From Burkholderiaceae bacterium (GTDB lineage Bacteria > Pseudomonadota > Gammaproteobacteria > Burkholderiales > Burkholderiaceae_C): a DNA stretch of 64,000 bases. Position 1 is the first letter of the stretch; each line of letters opens with the position of its first letter. The notes beneath the pieces were generated by a model that searched no databases, was not told the DNA's origin, and saw nothing but the letters and a program-made list of their open reading frames with translations. Positions 50,389-61,706 of the stretch are shown one piece after another. A program made the translations under genes and the position numbers. The DNA is taken from contig JAHCKM010000003.1 in NCBI GenBank assembly GCA_026125795.1, positions 248,001-312,000 of the forward strand, given 5' to 3'.

Positions 50389-50490
50389 TCGATGGACCAT
50401 TTCGGCCCTTTCCGGCATGTGCACCGGCCCGGCTGTGGACGCTTCGCCACACCCTGGGGAAAGCACGCAAGCTCAGGTCGGCGTCGCATT

Positions 50491-50517
50491 GTGTCGCAAG
50501 CCTGTCGATTGCGACAC
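50491..50517. promoter_or_regulatory. Inverted repeat, probable operator upstream of the TonB-dependent receptor
   Basis: GTGTCGCAA (50491-50499), nine spacer bases, TTGCGACAC (50509-50517): a perfect 9-bp dyad with a centre-to-centre half-site distance of 18 bp. It is about 135 bp before the receptor ATG. The adjacent regulator genes are natural candidates for binding, but this is inference. Confidence 0.55.
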
Positions 50518-50649
50518 CACACCATGCATCGCAACGAGGTGACTGCGCTGCGTCGCGGCGCATCGCGCGGCTGACATCCACTGCTTCGATCGAAACGCTC
50601 ACCGCTGCCTAGATTGTCTCGATTCGTTTCGGCGACGGGAGTCGAGGGC

Positions 50650-53454
50650 ATGAAGGCGACAGTGCGTTGGACGGTGCTGGCGGCACGCATGGCGTGTGCG
50701 GGCCTGGCGGCCGGTGCGGAGGTGTGGGCGCAGGACACACCGCAACGCGTGGAGATCACCGGCTCGTCGATCAAGCGCACCGACGCGGAGACCGCGTTGC
50801 CGGTGCAGGTGATCACGCGCCAGGAGATCCAGTCGTCTGGCGCGGTCAACGTCGAGCAGCTGCTGCAATCGATCAGCGCGGCGTCGAGCTCGGGCGGGAT
50901 CACCAACTCGTCGTCGTCGGGGGCGGCCACCGGCGGCATCTCTTCGATTTCGTTGCGCGGACTGACGTCGCTGCGCACGCTGGTGCTTATCAACGGCAGG
51001 CGCATCGCGCCCTACGGCATCGGATTCGTCGGCGACTCGGTGTCGGTGGACGTCAACTCGATCCCTTTGTCGGCCATCGAGCGCGTCGAGGTGCTCAAGG
51101 ACGGTGCGTCGGCGATCTACGGCTCCGACGCGATTGCCGGCGTCGTCAACTTCATCCTGCGCAAGGACTACAACGCGCTAGAGCTGTCGGCGGACTATGG
51201 CGACACCACGCAGGGCGGCGCCAGCCTGAAGCGCGCGACCATCACGTGGGGCAAGGGCGACGTCACCACCGACAAGTTCAACCTCATGCTGTCGGCGTCG
51301 TTCCAGAAGGAGGGCGCGCTGTTCGGCCGTGACCGCGACTTCGCCGCACGCGGCTACAACGTGGAACACAACAACGACGTCACGTCGTTCAACACCTTCC
51401 CGGCCAACTTCCTGCTGATCGATCCGTCGGGCAACGGCGGCAACCCGAGCGCGCCCACCTGCCCTGGGCCGTATTCGTTCGACAGCCCGTTCCTCACCGG
51501 CAGCGGCTTCTGCGCCTACGACCCGTCGCCCGACGTGACGCTGCTGCCGGCCAGCGAGCGCGCCAGCCTGTTCGCTTCGGCGCGTTTCGCGGTGACGAGC
51601 AGCCTCGAGTTGTTTGCCGAGGCTTCGTTCAACCGCAACAAGCAGCGAACGGTGATCCAGCCGGTGCCGCTGTCGTTCCTGTTCACGCTGCCGCCGAACC
51701 ACCCGCTGTACAACGTGCCGCCGTACAACGGCTTCTATCCGCCGGGTGCGCCCGGCGGCCTGGGTGGCACCGAGCATGGCCTCGGCGTGGGGCTGAACAC
51801 GATCATCGTGTACCCCGACATGCCCTTCTATCCCACCGCGACGGTGCAGGCGCTGGTGGGTGCCGGCAACCCGCTGCCGCCGATTGCGCCGCTGTACCGC
51901 TCGGCGTTGAGCGGCAATCGCGACTTCACCGACGTGTCGGAATCGCCGCGCCTCGTGCTCGGCGCGCGCGGCGACGCGATCGGCTGGGACTACGAGGCGG
52001 CGTACCTGCACACCGCCAGCCGGGTGCGCGAGACGGTGGCCAGCGGCTACCCGGCGCTGACGCAGATCCTGCCGTTGCTCAACAGCGGTACCGTCAACCT
52101 GTTCGGGCCCAACACGCCGGACATCGAAGCCCAGGTGCGCGCCACCGGGTTCACCGGCGACGCGTTCCGCATCAAGTCACAGATCGACAGCGTCGCCGGC
52201 AAGGCCACGCGCGATCTCACGGCGATGCCTGGCGGGCCGCTGGCGCTGGCGATCGGCGTTGAGCACCGGCTCGAGAAGTTCCTGTTCGATCCGGCGCCGG
52301 AGATCCAGACCGGGGACATCTCGGGCTACGGCGGCAATCTGCTGCTGACCGACCGCAAGCGCAACGTCGAGGCGGCGTTCGGCGAGCTGAACATCCCGAT
52401 CCTCAAGGGGCTCGAGGTCAACACGGCGGTGCGCTTCGACCACTACGAGGGCGTGGGCAGTTCCACCACGCCGAAAGTCAGCCTGCGCTGGCAGCCGGTC
52501 TCCGAGGTGCTGCTGCGCGGCGCAGTGGGCAAGGGCTTCCGCGCGCCGAGCCTGCAGGACCTCTATCTGCCGATCACCAACAATGTGACGCCTGCGGGCA
52601 CCAACGACCCCGTTCGCTGTCCGGTCACCGGCAGCCGCACCGACTGCTCGACGCAGTTCAACGTGGTCAACGGCGGCGATCCGAACCTGAAGCCGGAAAA
52701 ATCGACCAATGCGACCGTGGGCATCGTATTTGCGCCGACGAACAGCGCCTCGCTCGCGGTCGATGCGTTCAAGATCGAGTTGAAGGACACCATCGTCAAC
52801 GGCGTGGCGCTGGCCACCATCCTCAGCGACCTCGACCGTTATGGCCATCTGGTGCAGCGCGGTCCGGTCGATCCGGCTTTTCCGACCCTGCCCGGGCCGA
52901 TCACTGCCATCACGCAGACCAACATCAACCTGGGCGAGACGCGCGTGTCGGGCATCGATCTCGACGGCCGCTGGGTGTTCGCCAACGGCGCGTTCGGCCG
53001 CTTTGGCGCGCAGCTGTCGGGCACGTACTTCCTCAAATACAAGGTGCAGAACCCGGACGGCACGTTCGCAGACGGCGTCGACCAGCCGAACACGGCGACC
53101 GGCGGGCTGATCCCGCGCTGGAAGCATTACCTCGCCGTCGATTGGACCGCAGGGCCCTGGGGCGTGACGTTGGCGCAGAATTTCCAGAAAGGACACTGGG
53201 ACCTGCCGGCGACCAATGCAGCGCCGGGTGATCCGCAGCGTCGCGTGGGCCACTACGAGACCTACGACCTGCAGCTGCGCTACACCGGATTCAAGTCGCT
53301 CACATTGAGGGGCGGCGTGCGCAATCTCTTTGACCGGGATCCGCCGTACAGCAACGCCGGCGGCCAGACCAGCTTCCAGACCGGTTACGACCCGCTCTAC
53401 GCCGACCCGCGCGGGCGCTTCATTTACGTCGGCTTCAGCTACGAGTTTAAGTAG
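50650..53454 (+). CDS. TonB-dependent outer-membrane receptor
   Basis: The 934-residue product has a signal peptide (~1-30, cleaved near VWAQD), a TonB-box-like EITGSSIKR, the plug domain (~45-175) with PVQVITRQEIQSSGAVNVEQ, LRGLTSLRTLVLINGRR and VEVLKDGASAIYGSDAIAGV, and a 22-strand barrel ending in FIYVGFSYEFK with the C-terminal aromatic. It belongs to the iron-complex/B12/carbohydrate receptor group, of the large type common in Xanthomonas and Sphingomonads. The ligand cannot be read. Expression probably involves the upstream dyad and the flanking regulators. Its end overlaps the following minus-strand regulator by 16 bp. Confidence 0.9.
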   Translation: MKATVRWTVLAARMACAGLAAGAEVWAQDTPQRVEITGSSIKRTDAETALPVQVITRQEIQSSGAVNVEQLLQSISAASSSGGITNSSSSGAATGGISSISLRGLTSLRTLVLINGRRIAPYGIGFVGDSVSVDVNSIPLSAIERVEVLKDGASAIYGSDAIAGVVNFILRKDYNALELSADYGDTTQGGASLKRATITWGKGDVTTDKFNLMLSASFQKEGALFGRDRDFAARGYNVEHNNDVTSFNTFPANFLLIDPSGNGGNPSAPTCPGPYSFDSPFLTGSGFCAYDPSPDVTLLPASERASLFASARFAVTSSLELFAEASFNRNKQRTVIQPVPLSFLFTLPPNHPLYNVPPYNGFYPPGAPGGLGGTEHGLGVGLNTIIVYPDMPFYPTATVQALVGAGNPLPPIAPLYRSALSGNRDFTDVSESPRLVLGARGDAIGWDYEAAYLHTASRVRETVASGYPALTQILPLLNSGTVNLFGPNTPDIEAQVRATGFTGDAFRIKSQIDSVAGKATRDLTAMPGGPLALAIGVEHRLEKFLFDPAPEIQTGDISGYGGNLLLTDRKRNVEAAFGELNIPILKGLEVNTAVRFDHYEGVGSSTTPKVSLRWQPVSEVLLRGAVGKGFRAPSLQDLYLPITNNVTPAGTNDPVRCPVTGSRTDCSTQFNVVNGGDPNLKPEKSTNATVGIVFAPTNSASLAVDAFKIELKDTIVNGVALATILSDLDRYGHLVQRGPVDPAFPTLPGPITAITQTNINLGETRVSGIDLDGRWVFANGAFGRFGAQLSGTYFLKYKVQNPDGTFADGVDQPNTATGGLIPRWKHYLAVDWTAGPWGVTLAQNFQKGHWDLPATNAAPGDPQRRVGHYETYDLQLRYTGFKSLTLRGGVRNLFDRDPPYSNAGGQTSFQTGYDPLYADPRGRFIYVGFSYEFK

Positions 53455-54287
53455 TCAGGGGCGACGCCGTGCGCAAGGCGCGGTTCGCCCAGTGCGGCAC
53501 CGCGCAGCACGAAGCCGCGTCCGCGCACGGCCTCGATCGCGAGATCCTGCACGCCGGCCGCGTGCAGGCGCTGGCGCAGCCTGTGCACGTAGACGTCGAC
53601 GCTGCGCGCGCGCAGTTGCGAGTCGGGCGCGCAAACCTGTTCGTGCAGCTCGGCGCGCGGCACCACGCGGCCCGCGTGCTGCGCCAGGCAGCGCAGCAGG
53701 TGCGCCTGGCCGCCGGTGAGCGCGATGGTCTGCTCGCCGCGCTGCAGCTGGTTGTGCACCGGATCGAGCCGCCAGCCCGACGGCAGATCGGGCGCGGCGG
53801 CGTGGCCGCGTTCGGCCTGCAGCGCTGCTGCGCCGCCGTGGCGGCGCAGCAGCGCCTCCAGACGTGCACGCAGTCGCCGCGGCGTCACCGGGTGGGCGAG
53901 GTGCTCGTCAGCGCCGAGTTCGAGCGCGATGATCTCGTCGACCTCGTCTTGCGACGCATCGAGCACGAGCAACGCGCCGTTGAAGCGGCGCCGCAACTGC
54001 GCCAGCGCCAACGGCAGCGGGCTCCCGTCGGCCTGCGCGTCGTAAACGATGGCATCGGGCACCACCTGGTCGGCGACGCCGTCGAGCTTGTGCAGGCCGT
54101 CGATCCATATGCAGCGCAGGCCACGCTGCGCCAGACAGTCGACCACGCTGCGCTGCGGCGCGCTTCCGCGCGCGACCATGAGCACCAGGTGCGCCGGCGC
54201 CTCCCACGGCTGCTCGTCAGCTGCGTCAGCCGTTGGCACGGCCACCGCCAGTGATTCACGGTGATAACCCATGACGCTGGCCATCAT
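53439..54287 (-). CDS. OmpR-type regulator with atypical receiver domain (A)
   Basis: The 282-residue product has a receiver-like domain (~30-150) and a C-terminal winged-helix Trans_reg_C domain (~175-270, ALTGGQAHLLRCLAQHAGRV ... SVDVYVHRLRQRLHAAG, GRGFVLRG). In the receiver the usual acidic pair is missing (HLVLMVARGS), the Asp in DAIVYDAQAD remains, and the switch Lys is His (LAHPVTPRRL). It probably works without normal phosphorylation. No kinase gene is adjacent. ATG at 54287 was preferred to a TTG 24 bp upstream. It overlaps the receptor tail and is divergent from the MocR-like gene. Confidence 0.82.
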   Translation of the reverse strand: MMASVMGYHRESLAVAVPTADAADEQPWEAPAHLVLMVARGSAPQRSVVDCLAQRGLRCIWIDGLHKLDGVADQVVPDAIVYDAQADGSPLPLALAQLRRRFNGALLVLDASQDEVDEIIALELGADEHLAHPVTPRRLRARLEALLRRHGGAAALQAERGHAAAPDLPSGWRLDPVHNQLQRGEQTIALTGGQAHLLRCLAQHAGRVVPRAELHEQVCAPDSQLRARSVDVYVHRLRQRLHAAGVQDLAIEAVRGRGFVLRGAALGEPRLAHGVAPDYLNS

Positions 54288-54449
54288 GGGTGGCTCGGCC
54301 AGGGACGACAAGGACCATTGTGGCCGTACGCCTCAAGCCAATGCGGTGGCGCCGCGACTCGGACACACGGAGCCGCAGCCCGTCGCATGCTCATGCAGTT
54401 CATCGCGCCAAACACCTAAATTCGCGCTGCCTCTCACACCCGGCGGTTG

Positions 54450-54527
54450 ACATGGGCCCCCACGCTCACCTCGTTCGCGACCCCCCGAGGGGGCTTCGGC
54501 GGCTTCGGGCAGCTGGGCGCCACTGAC
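54450..54527. repeat. Intergenic CCCCC/GGGGG repeat, copy 7
   Basis: GGGCCCCCACGCTCACCTCG, CGACCCCCCGAGGGGGCTTC, GGCGGCTTCGGGCAGCTGGG and CGCCACTGAC, ending at the start codon of the MocR-like gene. It is closest in block order to copy 1. It is open in frame with the gene, so a longer product from 54447 is formally possible. Confidence 0.75.
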
Positions 54528-56093
54528 ATGGTGAAGCAGGCCGCCGGCGTCCTGATCCAGCCCCTGGTTCGCTCGGCGTCGGAGCGCGTGTCGCGGCGTC
54601 TGCAGGTGTACCAGACCGTGCTCGATGCGATCCACCGCGGCGTGCTGTCGCCGGGCGCTCGGCTGCCGTCGGCACGGCAACTGGCCGCGGACTGGAGCGT
54701 GGCGCGTGGCGCGGTCGACGAGGCGTTCGCCCAGCTGCAGATCGAGGGTTATCTCGAGCGCCGCGTCGGCGACGGCACGTACGTGACGCGCCGGCCGCAA
54801 CCGATCGTGCAGCCTGACGCTCCGCGCGTGCTGCGCCCGCCGAGCCAATCGGCGCAGCAGGTGCTGAACCGCTTCTCGGTCTACCTCGGCAAGCCCAGGC
54901 AGGTGGAGTTGCCGCACGTGCTGCTGACGCCGATGCCGCTGTTCCCGCGCGCGCCGATGATCGAGCAGTTCCCGCTGCCGATCTGGCGCCGGCTGATGAT
55001 GCGGGCGCTCGGCGAGGACTACCGCGCGCATCTGAGCTACGGCGCCGCGGCCGGCCTGCCCGAGCTGCGCGAGGCGATCGCGCGCCACTTGTCGCTGACG
55101 CGCGCCACGCTGTGCTCGCCGCAGCAGGTGCTGGTGCTGAACAGCCCGATGCAGGCCATCGAGCTGATCGGCCGCGTGCTGCTCGAGCCGGGTGACAAGG
55201 TCTGGCTCGAAGACCCGGGACATGCAAGCCTGGTGTCGCTGTTCCAGGTGTTGCATGCCCAGGTGGTGGGCGTGCCGCTCGACGCGCGCGGACTCGACGT
55301 GGCCGCCGGCCGGCAGGTGGCGCCGGATGCCGCCGCCGTCTACCTGCATCCGCTGACGCAGTTTCCGCTCGGCGTGCGCACCGACAGCGCGCGCCGCGCC
55401 GAGCTGCTGCAATGGGCGGACGAAAGCGGCGCCTGGATCATCGAGGGCAACTTCAACGACGAGATTGCGCACGACGGCGCGGCGCCGGTGTCGTTCCAGG
55501 CCATGGATCGCTCCGACCGCGTGGTGCTGATGGGCACATTCGAAGGCATCATGTTCCCGTCGTTGCGCCTGGCCTATCTGGTGGTGCCCGAGCGCCTGGT
55601 GGAGGTGTTCGTCGCGATGCGCGGCCTGCTCGGCGACCACACCAACGCGTCGTTGCAGATCGCCATGGCCGCCTTCATCGACGAAGGCCACATGAGCAAC
55701 CACCTGCGCACGCTGCGCGAGGTGTCGCGCGAGCGCCGCGATGCTTTCGTGGCGGCGGCGCACCGTCACCTGCCCGATTGGGCCCGGGTCGGGCCGACCG
55801 CTGCCGGCACGCATGCCTGCCTGCATCTGCCGCCCGAGGTGGGCGACATGGAGGTGATGCGCCGCATCCGCGAGCACGGCGTGATGGCGATCGCACTGTC
55901 GTCGACCTGCTGGAACCCGCGTCCCTGGAACGGCCTGGTGCTGGGTTATGGCGCGTTCGCGCCGGCGGCAATCGATCAGGCCATGCGCACGATCGGGCGT
56001 GTGCTGCGGGAGATGAAGCACTCACCGGTCGCGTCGCGCGCTGGCGCCGCCGCGCCGCGCAAGGCTCACCAGGCCAGGGGCGAGAAGAGATAG
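54528..56093 (+). CDS. MocR/GntR-like regulator with a degenerate aminotransferase domain
   Basis: This 521-residue protein joins a GntR winged helix (~20-90, GVLSPGARLPSARQLAADWS and EGYLERRVGDGTYVT) to a fold-I aminotransferase-like domain (~130-490). Normal MocR proteins bind PLP through a Lys in a TFSKxLxPxLRLGY motif. Here the sequence is MGTFEGIMFPSLRLAYLVVP, with Glu in place of the Lys neighbourhood and no Lys in the loop. The Asp that contacts the PLP ring (EDDYDSE) reads EGNFNDE. PLP therefore cannot be held covalently, and ring contact is weakened. The ligand may be different or absent. The gene lies between two atypical OmpR-type regulators. Confidence 0.87.
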   Translation: MVKQAAGVLIQPLVRSASERVSRRLQVYQTVLDAIHRGVLSPGARLPSARQLAADWSVARGAVDEAFAQLQIEGYLERRVGDGTYVTRRPQPIVQPDAPRVLRPPSQSAQQVLNRFSVYLGKPRQVELPHVLLTPMPLFPRAPMIEQFPLPIWRRLMMRALGEDYRAHLSYGAAAGLPELREAIARHLSLTRATLCSPQQVLVLNSPMQAIELIGRVLLEPGDKVWLEDPGHASLVSLFQVLHAQVVGVPLDARGLDVAAGRQVAPDAAAVYLHPLTQFPLGVRTDSARRAELLQWADESGAWIIEGNFNDEIAHDGAAPVSFQAMDRSDRVVLMGTFEGIMFPSLRLAYLVVPERLVEVFVAMRGLLGDHTNASLQIAMAAFIDEGHMSNHLRTLREVSRERRDAFVAAAHRHLPDWARVGPTAAGTHACLHLPPEVGDMEVMRRIREHGVMAIALSSTCWNPRPWNGLVLGYGAFAPAAIDQAMRTIGRVLREMKHSPVASRAGAAAPRKAHQARGEKR

Positions 56094-56854
56094 CCGCGGT
56101 TGCGCACCGTGCGGATGCGCCGCGCCGTCGGATCGTGGTCGCCGAGCTTGGCCCTCAAGCGGTAGACGCAACAATCGATCGAGCGGTCGGCGCGCTGGTA
56201 CTCGAGTCCGCGCAGATGCGGAACGAGGTCACAGCGTCGCACCACATGCCCGGCGCGCACGGCGAGCAGCCACAGCAGCTCGAACTCGCCCTCGGTCAGC
56301 GCCATCGGTCGCTGGCCGAGCACGGCGCGCCGCTCGCGCCGGATGAGCTGCAAGCGTCCGAAGCACAGCTGTTCGGGTTGTTCGTCGGGCCGCTCGCCGC
56401 CGCGCCGCCACAGCGCGCGCAGCCGTGCCGCGACGACGGGCGCGCTCAGGGCGGTATCGATCACGTCGTCGGCCCCCATCTCGAGCGCGAGCACGTGGTC
56501 GAGGTCGCGCAGGCCCTGGCATGCGGCCACCAGCGGCACCTGCGGCGCCGCGCAGCGCAATGCGCGCAGGCGCGCCAACTGAGGCGGTAGTCCGCGCGTC
56601 AGGTGCAGGACCCAGGCGTCGGGCGGGGCGTCGCCGGCTCGGCCGGTGCCGTCGAGCGGCAAACAGCGCGCGTTGAGGCCTTCGCCCCGCAACGCGGTGA
56701 CCCACGCTGCCGCGGCGCCGGGGTCATCGGACAGCACCTGGACGCTGTGCGTGCTGCAACGCGCGGACGGCCCGGCTGCCGGAGAGGCGGTCGTCGGTGG
56801 CGCGGTGGGGGTGTCCACAATGGCGCCGATGGTTGGCCGTGAATGGCGGCGCAT
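56066..56854 (-). CDS. OmpR-type regulator with atypical receiver domain (B)
   Basis: The product, up to 262 residues, has a receiver-like domain (~38-155) and a winged helix (~170-262, ALTEGEFELLWLLAVRAGHV, SIDCCVYRLRAKLGDHD, RNRGYLFSPLAW). The acidic pair is kept (VLSDDP), but the phospho-accepting Asp position reads DAWVLHLTRG (His) and the switch Lys position reads DTALSAPVV (Ala). It should be phosphorylation-independent. It is a paralogue of regulator A. ATG 56854 or GTG 56818 could start it. Its 3' end overlaps the MocR-like gene by 28 bp. Confidence 0.8.
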   Translation of the reverse strand: MRRHSRPTIGAIVDTPTAPPTTASPAAGPSARCSTHSVQVLSDDPGAAAAWVTALRGEGLNARCLPLDGTGRAGDAPPDAWVLHLTRGLPPQLARLRALRCAAPQVPLVAACQGLRDLDHVLALEMGADDVIDTALSAPVVAARLRALWRRGGERPDEQPEQLCFGRLQLIRRERRAVLGQRPMALTEGEFELLWLLAVRAGHVVRRCDLVPHLRGLEYQRADRSIDCCVYRLRAKLGDHDPTARRIRTVRNRGYLFSPLAW

Positions 56855-56899
56855 CAAGGGCCATTTGGCGCGCGCGCGTGGGCCAATGTGGCCTGCCCG

Positions 56900-57727
56900 T
56901 CAGACGATCTTCTCTCCGGCGTGCGTGATCTTGCGCATCGGCTCGTAGCGATTGGAACTCACGCGCAGCGGATGCTGCGTGTCGCCGCCATCCCAGCGCG
57001 GGTCGTCGAGGCCGTCAAACACCTCGCGCAGGCGCTGGCCCCAGGTGCTGTGGATCATCTGGAAGTAGGGGTTGCGGTCGTCGATGCAGACGATCTGATC
57101 GGTGCTGAACTGGCCCTCGCGGTACACCAGCAGGTCCAGCGGCAGGCCGACGCCGAGGTTGGACTTGAGCGTCGAATCCATCGACACCAGCGCGCACTTG
57201 GCGGCGGTTTCCAGCGGCGTGGTCGGCGTGATCAACCGATCAAGCACCGGCTTGCCGTACTTGGACTCGCCGATCTGGAAATAGCAGGTTTCGCGTGTGG
57301 CCTCGATGAAGTTGCCGGCCGAGTACACCAGGAACATCCGCATCGCCTCGCCGCGGATCTGGCCGCCGAAGATCATCGTGGCGTTGAATTCGATGCCGGC
57401 GTTCTTCAACGCCTCGCCGTCCTCGGCATAGACGCGGCGCACGGTGGCGCCGAGCACGCGCGCGGCATCGAACATGCTGGGCGCGTTCCAGATGGTCAGC
57501 GGATCGCCGCCGTGGTGCGACTCGATCTTCTCCACCTGCAGCAGCTCGCGCACCGACTGCGAGGTCGACAGGTTGCCGGCCGACAGCATCACCATGAAGC
57601 GGTCACCCGGCTTCTCGTAGACCATCATCTTTCGAAAGGTGCTGATCTGGTCCATGCCGGCGTTGGTGCGCGAATCGGATAGGAACACCAGGCCCGCATT
57701 GAGCCGGATGCCGATGCAATAGGTCAT
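56900..57727 (-). CDS. Anbu, proteasome-like self-compartmentalising peptidase homologue
   Basis: The 275-residue product is an Ntn-hydrolase of the proteasome beta-subunit family, Anbu type: [20 protein letters not shown] with Thr2 as the expected N-terminal nucleophile, [27 protein letters not shown], and the long C-terminal tail of the family. Anbu forms open helical or ring assemblies; peptidase activity has been hard to show. It usually sits with alpha-E, transglutaminase and ATP-grasp genes, none of which are here. Instead its ATG overlaps the mutS stop (TCAT). Confidence 0.88.
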
Positions 57728-60440: not shown

Positions 60441-61706
60441 ATGTTCGATCCACGATCCGCGAAGGCCTTGAAGGCTGGTCAGCATCTCATTGTCGAGCAG
60501 GCACCAGGGCTGCGCCTTGTGGCGACGGCGAGCGGGCATTCGTGGATCTACCGCTATCGCTCGCCTATCGACAGCCGAATGCGCCAACTCAAGTTGGGGC
60601 GCTGGCCTGCGCTCGGTCTTCCGGCCGCGCTGGCGGCTTGGCATCAGGTGAAGGCTGTGCGCGATACCGGCGGCGATCCTGCCGCACAGCGGCGCGAGCG
60701 GCGCCAAGCGGAAGCCTCTAAGGAACGCTCGGGCCGGCTTACCGTAGCCAAGCTCCGGCACGAGTTTCTCGCGGCCTACGCAGGCAGCGTGGCTCTCAAA
60801 ACCTTTGGGGAGGCCAAGCGCTTGCTCGAGCGTGAGTTGGCACCGCTGGATCGGCGAGAGGCAGCCACCATCACACGGGGGGACGTCTTTGATCTGCTCG
60901 ATAGCATGCGGGATCGGCCGGTTGTTGCGGCGAACTTGCGTCGGCTCGCGGGGGCGGCTTGGGACCGCGCGCTGGACTCGGGGAGGTTGCCCGAGAACAC
61001 CCCCAACTGGTGGCGTCTGGTTCTTCGCGGCAAGCTGGTGAGCCGAGGCAAGCGCGTTGCAGGCCATCACCGCGGGGTTCAAAAGCGTGCCCTCAACACC
61101 GACGAGCTTCGCCTCCTCCTGCCCTGGCTGCCCAACTTCACGCGCGATATCGGGGACGCCCTGGTGCTGTACCTTTGGACTTGCTGTCGAGGCTCCGAGA
61201 TCGTCGCCATGGAACGCAACGAGGTCGCGGAGGAACAGGATGGTCTGTGGTGGACCATTCCCCGGGCCAAGCTCAAGATGCGGCGGAACCCGTCGGTCAC
61301 CGACCTTCGCGTTCCACTGATCGGCCATGCGGAGGCAGTTGTACGGCGCAGGCTGGCGGCGCACGACAGGCAGCTCCTCTTCCACTCGCGTGGCCGGTCC
61401 GGGCACATCGAGCAGAAGGCCGTCGGTGTCGCTGTCTGGTGCCACATGCCGAATTGCGCGCTGCGCCCAGAGTGGGTTCGTCCTCGACTACCCGTCACGG
61501 ACTGGGCACCTCATGACTTGCGCCGGACTGGACGCACCTTGCTGGCGTCGCTGGGCTGCCCCAACGAGGTCGGCGAGGCCATTCTTGGCCACCTTCTTCC
61601 CGGCGTGCAGAAGGTCTACAACCGGCATCACTATGACGCCGAGCGGCGCCACTGGCTCAGCCAGTTGAGTGGGGCGCTGGAACGGCTGGCTCGCGGGGAG
61701 AGCTGA
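60441..61706 (+). CDS. P4-type tyrosine recombinase/integrase
   Basis: The 421-residue integrase has an N-terminal DUF4102-type arm-binding domain (~1-85, SWIYRYRSPIDSRMRQLKLG), a core-binding domain (~100-190) and a catalytic domain with Arg in TCCRGSEIVAMERNEV, a Lys in PRAKLKMRRNPS, the HDLRRTGRT box, LGHLLPGVQKVYNRHHY (His and Tyr nucleophile). All five key residues appear present, so it may be active. It mobilises a genomic island; its insertion point by mutS has no tRNA. Iterons abut the start codon. Base composition is lower in GC upstream than its neighbours. Confidence 0.9.
   Translation: MFDPRSAKALKAGQHLIVEQAPGLRLVATASGHSWIYRYRSPIDSRMRQLKLGRWPALGLPAALAAWHQVKAVRDTGGDPAAQRRERRQAEASKERSGRLTVAKLRHEFLAAYAGSVALKTFGEAKRLLERELAPLDRREAATITRGDVFDLLDSMRDRPVVAANLRRLAGAAWDRALDSGRLPENTPNWWRLVLRGKLVSRGKRVAGHHRGVQKRALNTDELRLLLPWLPNFTRDIGDALVLYLWTCCRGSEIVAMERNEVAEEQDGLWWTIPRAKLKMRRNPSVTDLRVPLIGHAEAVVRRRLAAHDRQLLFHSRGRSGHIEQKAVGVAVWCHMPNCALRPEWVRPRLPVTDWAPHDLRRTGRTLLASLGCPNEVGEAILGHLLPGVQKVYNRHHYDAERRHWLSQLSGALERLARGES

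Follow-up and report, generated by a model that had tools for sequence, protein, structure and literature searches.

How can three regulators respond to a signal when the residues with which their families receive signals appear to have been lost? The question is raised by a locus in a 64,000-nucleotide stretch of DNA from a Burkholderiaceae bacterium (assembly GCA_026125795.1, contig JAHCKM010000003.1, positions 248,001 to 312,000, designated G000:C3:248001-312000; hereafter the window), whose genome (G000) comprises 6.57 Mb. A gene for a TonB-dependent receptor (50650..53454, + strand, 934 aa) is followed there by genes for an OmpR-type regulator (A; 53439..54284, - strand), a MocR-type regulator (54528..56093, + strand) and a second OmpR-type regulator (B; 56066..56857, - strand). 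A sequence-only reading of this DNA had proposed that all three regulators lack their sensing residues and form a local circuit, independent of phosphorylation and of pyridoxal 5'-phosphate (PLP), that controls the receptor and perhaps senses a ligand directly. We find that the cassette is real and conserved, and that it has a dedicated promoter element. The losses are confirmed in substance, although several were placed one residue off and A retains its phospho-accepting aspartate in five of seven orthologues. The local circuit is well supported, both by conserved gene order and place and by an element that, in each of four whole genomes, is confined to the upstream regions of A and B.

The four genes had been correctly identified. 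The receptor has plug (PF07715) and beta-barrel (PF00593) domains, and a Pfam scan at E up to 0.01 revealed no extra N-terminal signalling domain. A and B are paralogues (31% identity over 260 aa), both with a Trans_reg_C DNA-binding domain (Pfam, E 2.6e-17 for A and 1.6e-19 for B), and MocR combines a GntR winged helix (PF00392, E 1.1e-14) with an aminotransferase domain (Aminotran_1_2, PF00155, E 3.8e-16). The convergent pairs overlap at their tails, by 16 bp for the receptor and A and by 28 bp for MocR and B; A and MocR are divergent. Between pyrG and mutS the window contains only these genes and a peptidase-like gene, presumably Anbu-like, and according to the open reading frame (ORF) list and Pfam none of the five encodes a kinase.

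The set was sought in relatives and reaches beyond this strain. Among 299 sampled genomes of the family, MocR was found at E <=1e-90 in five (own genome included), B at 1e-30 in seven, the five MocR genomes among them, and the receptor at 1e-150 in 13; G144 and G258 matched B at E 1e-31 and 5e-32. A pattern-based scan of 84,980 species genomes, which reaches close relatives only, gave 21 loci, six of them orthologous (56-78% identity) and 15 with distant MocRs (30-37%). Three of the six orthologous loci are the same records as sampled genomes, and orthologous genomes total eight. In six genomes (own, L006, L010, L013, L014 and L015) the receptor, A, MocR and B follow one another in this order, flanked by pyrG on one side and by the Anbu-like gene and mutS on the other; B and the Anbu-like gene are separated by as much as about 8 kb (in L014). 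Receptor orthologues at this address are 58-63% identical. The set is rearranged in G118: one contig carries the receptor, an AraC-type gene, a gene for a small secreted-looking protein, MocR and the end of B, and a second contig has A, a pseudo-receiver, beside the Anbu-like gene. The L012 contig begins before the place of A and carries MocR, B and another receptor. The site was also inspected in five relatives that lack the set, and no match to A, B, MocR or the receptor was found there in any of them. The empty site, from pyrG to the Anbu-like gene, measures 137 bp in G098, a genome of the same genus, and 88 bp in G096. The spacing without the set is wider in G119 (892 bp) and G192 (about 2 kb). 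No pyrG was found within the stretch fetched for G011, nor an Anbu-like match in G199 (85% complete).

A related arrangement, different in order and place, occurs in G542, which belongs to another family of the order: a gene for a small secreted-looking protein, a LytTR gene, MocR, an OmpR-type regulator and a receptor 41% identical to that of the window. This MocR has Asn for the PLP-binding lysine, and the OmpR-type regulator lacks the acidic pair and the Lys and retains the Asp. G542 alone among 28 genomes of its family has this MocR at 1e-85. Each of the nine MocRs without the lysine is accompanied, at a distance of about 3 kb at most, by a TonB receptor and an OmpR-type gene. The nearby OmpR receiver lacks key residues in eight of the eight that could be read, B of G118 being cut by the contig end. 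No stop codon was found within any orthologous match to A, B or MocR in the family searches. The changes are found in orthologue after orthologue, in frames that stay open, and so are not due to chance; the residue losses are a shared trait and not an accident of one strain.

What has been lost is clearest for MocR, whose closest solved relative is GabR (E 5e-42). The position of the PLP-binding lysine (Lys312 of GabR) is Gly340 in the window, and that of the aspartate contacting the ring nitrogen (Asp279 of GabR) is Gly307. The sequence-only reading was thus right that both residues are gone, but the Glu and Asn that it had placed at these positions are the adjoining Glu339 and Asn308. Gly340, Gly307, Asn308 and Asn205-Ser206-Pro207 are invariant across all eight orthologous MocRs. 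We take residues 205-207 to form the phosphate-binding loop of this fold, and Arg347, also invariant, to be the likely phosphate-side arginine. The GabR numbers come from PMC6677901 and were matched by spacing; the same paper states that Asp279 and Lys312 are conserved over all MocR clusters.

In a comparison of 44 MocR-type sequences (the eight orthologues, G542 and 35 other homologues), the lysine is absent in nine and present in 35; the ring aspartate is present in G542 and in all of the 35. In a tree built without the trait columns, the nine MocRs without the lysine form a single clade (100/100), and a single change suffices. As G542 has Asn in place of the lysine but an intact aspartate, the lysine may have been lost before the ring aspartate. 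Of 399 genomes of the order, a profile of the eight orthologues matched just two at 1e-110, the own genome and G542. Among 340 genomes of the class 15 were matched at 1e-95, and all 16 matches outside the own genome have the lysine. MocR is under purifying selection, with dN/dS of 0.19-0.31 among the three closest genomes; the values are 0.40-0.55 for B and 0.39-0.59 for A, at dS of 0.57-1.10. These are crude counts, among which A reaches 0.79 against L013 and no computed value exceeds 1. The predicted model of MocR has a pLDDT of 69.7, and our statements on its pocket do not rest on it. Two RTCGCR half-sites at a distance of 20 bp are present in the MocR promoters of the own genome, L010 and L006, the three that were examined.

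For the receivers, the reference consisted of seven OmpR-type regulators with all five active-site residues, picked from 27 Trans_reg_C matches in the same genome. The partial B of L011, cut by a contig end, was excluded from the counts, and A of L012 lies off its contig. In receiver A of the window, the alignment has Ala-Arg for the acidic pair and His for the switch Lys, as the sequence-only reading had stated, with Asp at the switch Thr and the phospho-Asp present. Both acidic residues and the Lys are gone in seven of seven orthologues, Thr or Ser is present at the switch position in three, and the phospho-Asp is replaced in two, by Ser in L006 and by His in L090. Receiver B of the window has, as likewise stated there, His at the phospho-Asp position and Cys at the switch Thr. 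Its Lys position is occupied by Thr, the Ala named in the sequence-only reading being the next residue. Across the seven B orthologues the phospho-Asp is always gone (His in six, Tyr in L012), Cys always stands at the switch Thr, the Lys is always gone (Ala there in 5/7) and the first acidic residue likewise, whereas the second is retained in six. Intact residues were sought among the orthologues, and none has the full set. Independence of phosphorylation and PLP is supported to this extent, since residues are lost in all orthologues read, with the Asp of A as the part that does not fit.

Neither A nor B is matched by Response_reg of Pfam; NCBIfam response regulators align over most of their length, with scores below cut-off. 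In the AlphaFold model of B (pLDDT 75.9, pTM 0.50), strands and helices follow one another much as in a receiver, except that helix alpha2 is missing. The model is matched best by whole response regulators (best E 7e-17), at low TM scores (0.4-0.5; 0.42/0.48 for the best). The DNA-binding domain of B is matched best by RstA (E 7e-22; 4nhj_A, TM 0.89 normalised by target). The former phosphorylation pocket of B, with an acidic residue (6/7), His (6/7) and Cys (7/7) at the positions that are Asp, Asp and Thr in a receiver, could be a metal or redox site, to judge from its residues. According to PMC4395418, Arg, Lys and His together account for 4% of the substitutions at the receiver Asp position.

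The two OmpR-type genes are tied together by a bipartite promoter element, which is new here. One copy, CAAGGACCATT-N18-CCAAT, is located at the A promoter (54309..54342) and the other, CAAGGGCCATT-N17-CCAAT, at the B promoter (56855..56887); these two copies, given without strand, are the only ones in the 6.57-Mb genome. The short form CCAWT-N17/18-CCAWT occurs upstream of A in 7/7 orthologous promoters and upstream of B in 7/8, the single miss being B of G118, with an altered first half-site; shuffled sequences gave means of 0-0.4 hits per locus. One further short-form hit in the own window lies on the other strand at 56819-56846, adjacent to the B copy. The extended form CAAGRRCCAWT-N17/18-CCAWT was found exactly twice per whole genome in G000, G273, G227 and G143 and once in G118, always at A or B, and a reversed-pattern control had no hit in any of the six genomes searched. 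Read on the coding strand, the element consists of two AWTGG boxes with a spacing of 22-23 bp, and YYCTTG follows the second box. In 7/8 B promoters, the own being the exception, TACACC lies 17-18 bases beyond the TTG hexamer, and the two look like -35 and -10 sequences. Since the shared element extends as far as the upstream start codons or close to them, the true starts of A and B are likely inside the listed ORFs, at ATG 54272 and GTG 56818, respectively. In G542, a copy CCAAT-N18-CCATT lies between MocR and its divergent neighbour.

A different signal is present at the receptor promoter, for which seven of the eight orthologous genomes could be used, the L012 contig lacking a receptor promoter at this place. 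In 7/7 promoters, 30-69 nt separate the receptor ATG from the end of an upstream, -10-like TAGATT (50610..50615, + strand, in the window). Upstream of it in the window is a repeat array (50483..50517, + strand) with GTCGCA at 50483 and 50493 and GTCGAT at 50504. Over the seven regions, repeats at 10 bp were seen 26 times against 4.3 expected (z 6.4, 400 shuffles) and at 20 bp 22 times against 3.6 (z 6.1), the next best of 24 spacings giving z 2.3. TGTCRC/GYGACA half-sites, a motif chosen after viewing the sequences, number 17 against about 1.5 expected. Control of the receptor, as proposed by the sequence-only reading, is supported only indirectly, by repeats phased at 10 bp that are unseen in two of the seven promoters. 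The array includes a dyad at 50491-50517, a perfect 9-bp inverted repeat. A role of the dyad as such as the conserved operator is not supported: GTGTCGC-N8-18-GCGACAC occurs at two places in the own genome, one of them the dyad, versus three for the reversed control.

These observations could be joined in the model of a cassette that regulates a single outer-membrane receptor by its own means: MocR would act on A and B, and A and B on the receptor. We regard this model as evenly poised between right and wrong. MocR, without the lysine that holds PLP, would act as a permanently apo protein, bind the direct-repeat element (two AWTGG boxes just upstream of the -35-like TTG) at the A and B promoters and thereby drive both genes, an assignment suggested by the habits of its family. 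A and B, with receivers that have lost residues required for ordinary phosphorylation, would bind the TGTCRC repeats phased at 10 bp and set receptor expression. The input is probably neither a histidine kinase nor PLP; candidates are a small molecule, a metal or the redox state, perceived through the altered pocket of MocR and/or the altered receiver pocket of B, or else merely the amounts of the three proteins. We infer the pairing of proteins with elements, the direction of regulation and the input from sequence and by analogy. MocR is placed on A/B, and A/B on the receptor, because direct repeats fit an apo-MocR and tandem 10-bp repeats fit an RstA-like domain. PMC5320631 reports that apo-PdxR prefers direct repeats and PLP-bound PdxR inverted ones, direct repeats being common in MocR operators, and according to PMC4117788 the RstA box is a tandem TACA repeat. 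A bolder version, in which the PLP pocket of this MocR clade now reads the cargo of its own receptor and the pocket of B is an acidic/His/Cys metal or redox site, appears quite unlikely to us. If true, it would be a one-locus circuit where two classical sensing chemistries were replaced.

Several observations weigh against this model. The pairing of MocR with the A/B element rests on family habits, and by the same analogy A or B could bind it. The phospho-Asp of A is present in five of seven orthologues. MocR exceeds the NCBIfam cut-off for PdxR (323.9 versus 320 bits) although the residues are gone; its score for rhizopine MocR is 340.6 bits, with a cut-off of 650. At the receptor promoter, L010 and L006 give zero counts at both 10 and 20 bp, 24 spacings were tried for the phasing and TGTCRC was picked post hoc; the dyad by itself is non-specific, and the conserved signal is the half-site plus the 10-bp phasing in five of seven regions. 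In G542 the extended element has no hit and only the shorter form is present, for which shuffles give 0.10 per locus. Receptor homologues at 54-59% BLAST identity also occur without the set.

Binding of the A/B element by A and/or B themselves, in auto- or cross-regulation, with MocR acting elsewhere, for example at the receptor promoter or its own, is a possibility of some weight. In four genomes the element stands before the two OmpR genes alone, its spacing of 22-23 bp is close to two 11-bp steps, and OmpR-type proteins bind tandem repeats, according to PMC4117788. However, by eye no conserved middle box was seen at 10-12 bp, the AWTGG half-site is unlike the TGTCRC repeats at the receptor, and the G542 copy adjoins MocR rather than the OmpR gene. 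It is also conceivable, if rather unlikely, that nothing is sensed at all: the aminotransferase fold of MocR would be a dimerisation scaffold and A and B constitutively active, with protein amounts setting the output via feedback. PMC12632262 describes indirect control as a recognised model for pseudo-receivers that are constitutively active, and key residues are gone from all three sensory pockets; yet the former MocR pocket shows no drift, Gly340, Gly307, Asn308 and Asn205-Ser206-Pro207 being the same in every orthologue, and B retains its His and Cys as counted above.

That MocR remains a B6 sensor, binding PLP or another B6 vitamer without the lysine, we consider improbable. The lysine, the ring aspartate and the Asn205-Pro207 stretch, which we take to be the loop, are altered together in 8/8 orthologues, even though Arg347, presumably on the phosphate side, is invariant and the domain is still recognised by profiles, above the PdxR cut-off. 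A might still be phosphorylated, with an unlinked kinase or a small phosphodonor acting on the Asp that remains; this would fit the presence of that Asp in 5/7 orthologues and in the regulators of G542 and G096 (see below). We regard it as highly improbable, since the acidic-pair residues of receivers are Mg2+ ligands and both are gone in 7/7, as is the Lys, and since Ser or His replaces the Asp in two orthologues. There remains the idea that the regulators are decaying relics, to which the missing catalytic residues, the patchy presence of the set and the faster evolution of A and B than of MocR could point. It is hardly credible and we reject it: the frames are free of inner stops, the DNA-binding domains are recognisable, a dedicated pair of elements is present and the change in MocR has one old origin.

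The cassette shares traits with several known systems. FecA/FecIR is a trans-envelope signalling system in which a TonB receptor has local regulators, as in the window, where, however, the receptor has no signalling domain by Pfam and no sigma/anti-sigma pair lies between pyrG and mutS. Like the MocR/PdxR/GabR subfamily, the MocR of the window combines a GntR winged helix with a fold-type-I aminotransferase domain, and the direct-repeat element at A and B fits MocR habits as given in PMC5320631. It differs in having Gly/Gly in 8/8 orthologues, where the subfamily has the PLP lysine and the ring aspartate in all clusters (PMC6677901). A and B resemble the OmpR/PhoB pseudo-receivers or aspartate-less regulators, such as RitR, ChxR, HP1043 and GlnR, in having a DNA-binding domain and missing receiver residues, and B likewise has a basic residue at the Asp position. 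In contrast to this group, two paralogous pseudo-receivers and a MocR without the PLP lysine are found here in one cassette with a common promoter element, and the pocket of B holds His (6/7) plus Cys (7/7), that of A an Asp (5/7). B is aspartate-less in 7/7 orthologues, whereas A retains the Asp in five of seven. PMC12632262 defines a pseudo-receiver as a domain that computation identifies as a receiver and in which key phosphotransfer residues are missing; the residue losses of A and B agree with the second part, and their identification as receivers comes from full-length NCBIfam alignments and the model of B, not from the Pfam receiver model. RstA/RstB is the system whose DNA-binding domain B resembles best; it differs in that the window has no kinase gene between pyrG and mutS, B lacks the phospho-Asp and the half-site at the receptor promoter is TGTCRC, not TACA.

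Pseudo-receivers as such are already known, whereas for a MocR clade without the PLP lysine we found no report in the open-licence literature searched, where we also found no paper joining 'pseudo-receiver' and 'TonB-dependent receptor'. The 2025 review PMC12632262 calls the switching of pseudo-receivers a mystery. The locus brings compactly together two pseudo-receivers and a MocR clade without residues said to be conserved across MocR clusters. It also provides a likely output gene, an element with just two copies per genome in four whole genomes, a relative of the same genus whose site is empty, and naturally occurring variants at the key residues, so that what replaces phosphorylation and PLP is directly testable.

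A precursor with intact residues was sought in eight of the 13 receptor-bearing family genomes, these eight being without the MocR of the set. In G096 (L082 5529-6569), an OmpR-type pseudo-receiver lies directly upstream of a 59% identical receptor; its acidic pair is Glu-Arg, the Lys is Met and the Asp is retained, and no MocR match was found in the fetched stretch. G139 and G293 (L092, L093) have a receptor 42-43% identical beside a MocR with the lysine and a NarL-type regulator. By eye the receiver of the latter looks degenerate (Asp to Gly, Lys to Ser), so that these two loci parallel the set with a regulator of a different type. In G192, G266, G119, G282 and G238 the receptor has no immediate neighbour that matches A, B or MocR; G192 and G266 have A- or B-like ORFs several kb from it. 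A small secreted-looking protein with an FDFWxGxW motif adjoins these receptors or MocRs in four genomes (L007 9638-10159, L012 837-1352, L082 9477-10025, L096 7522-8040) and is not in the set of the window. It had no Pfam match in the three copies scanned (L007, L082 and L096).

Around the set, the Anbu-like gene is located at 56900-57727 of the window, between the set and mutS. It had zero Pfam or NCBIfam matches despite 71-87% identity in the relatives matched; the mutS label was read from the sequence. Beyond mutS lies an ORF looking by eye like a phage-type integrase (60441-61706), and similar integrase-looking ORFs are present on the same side in L010, L013 and G119. The gap between pyrG and the receptor is about 0.3 kb in the window versus about 1.3 kb in L006, L010, L013, L014 and L015. 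In L015 it contains an alpha/beta hydrolase gene (Pfam), and a similar-looking ORF adjoins A in L090 (280-1101).

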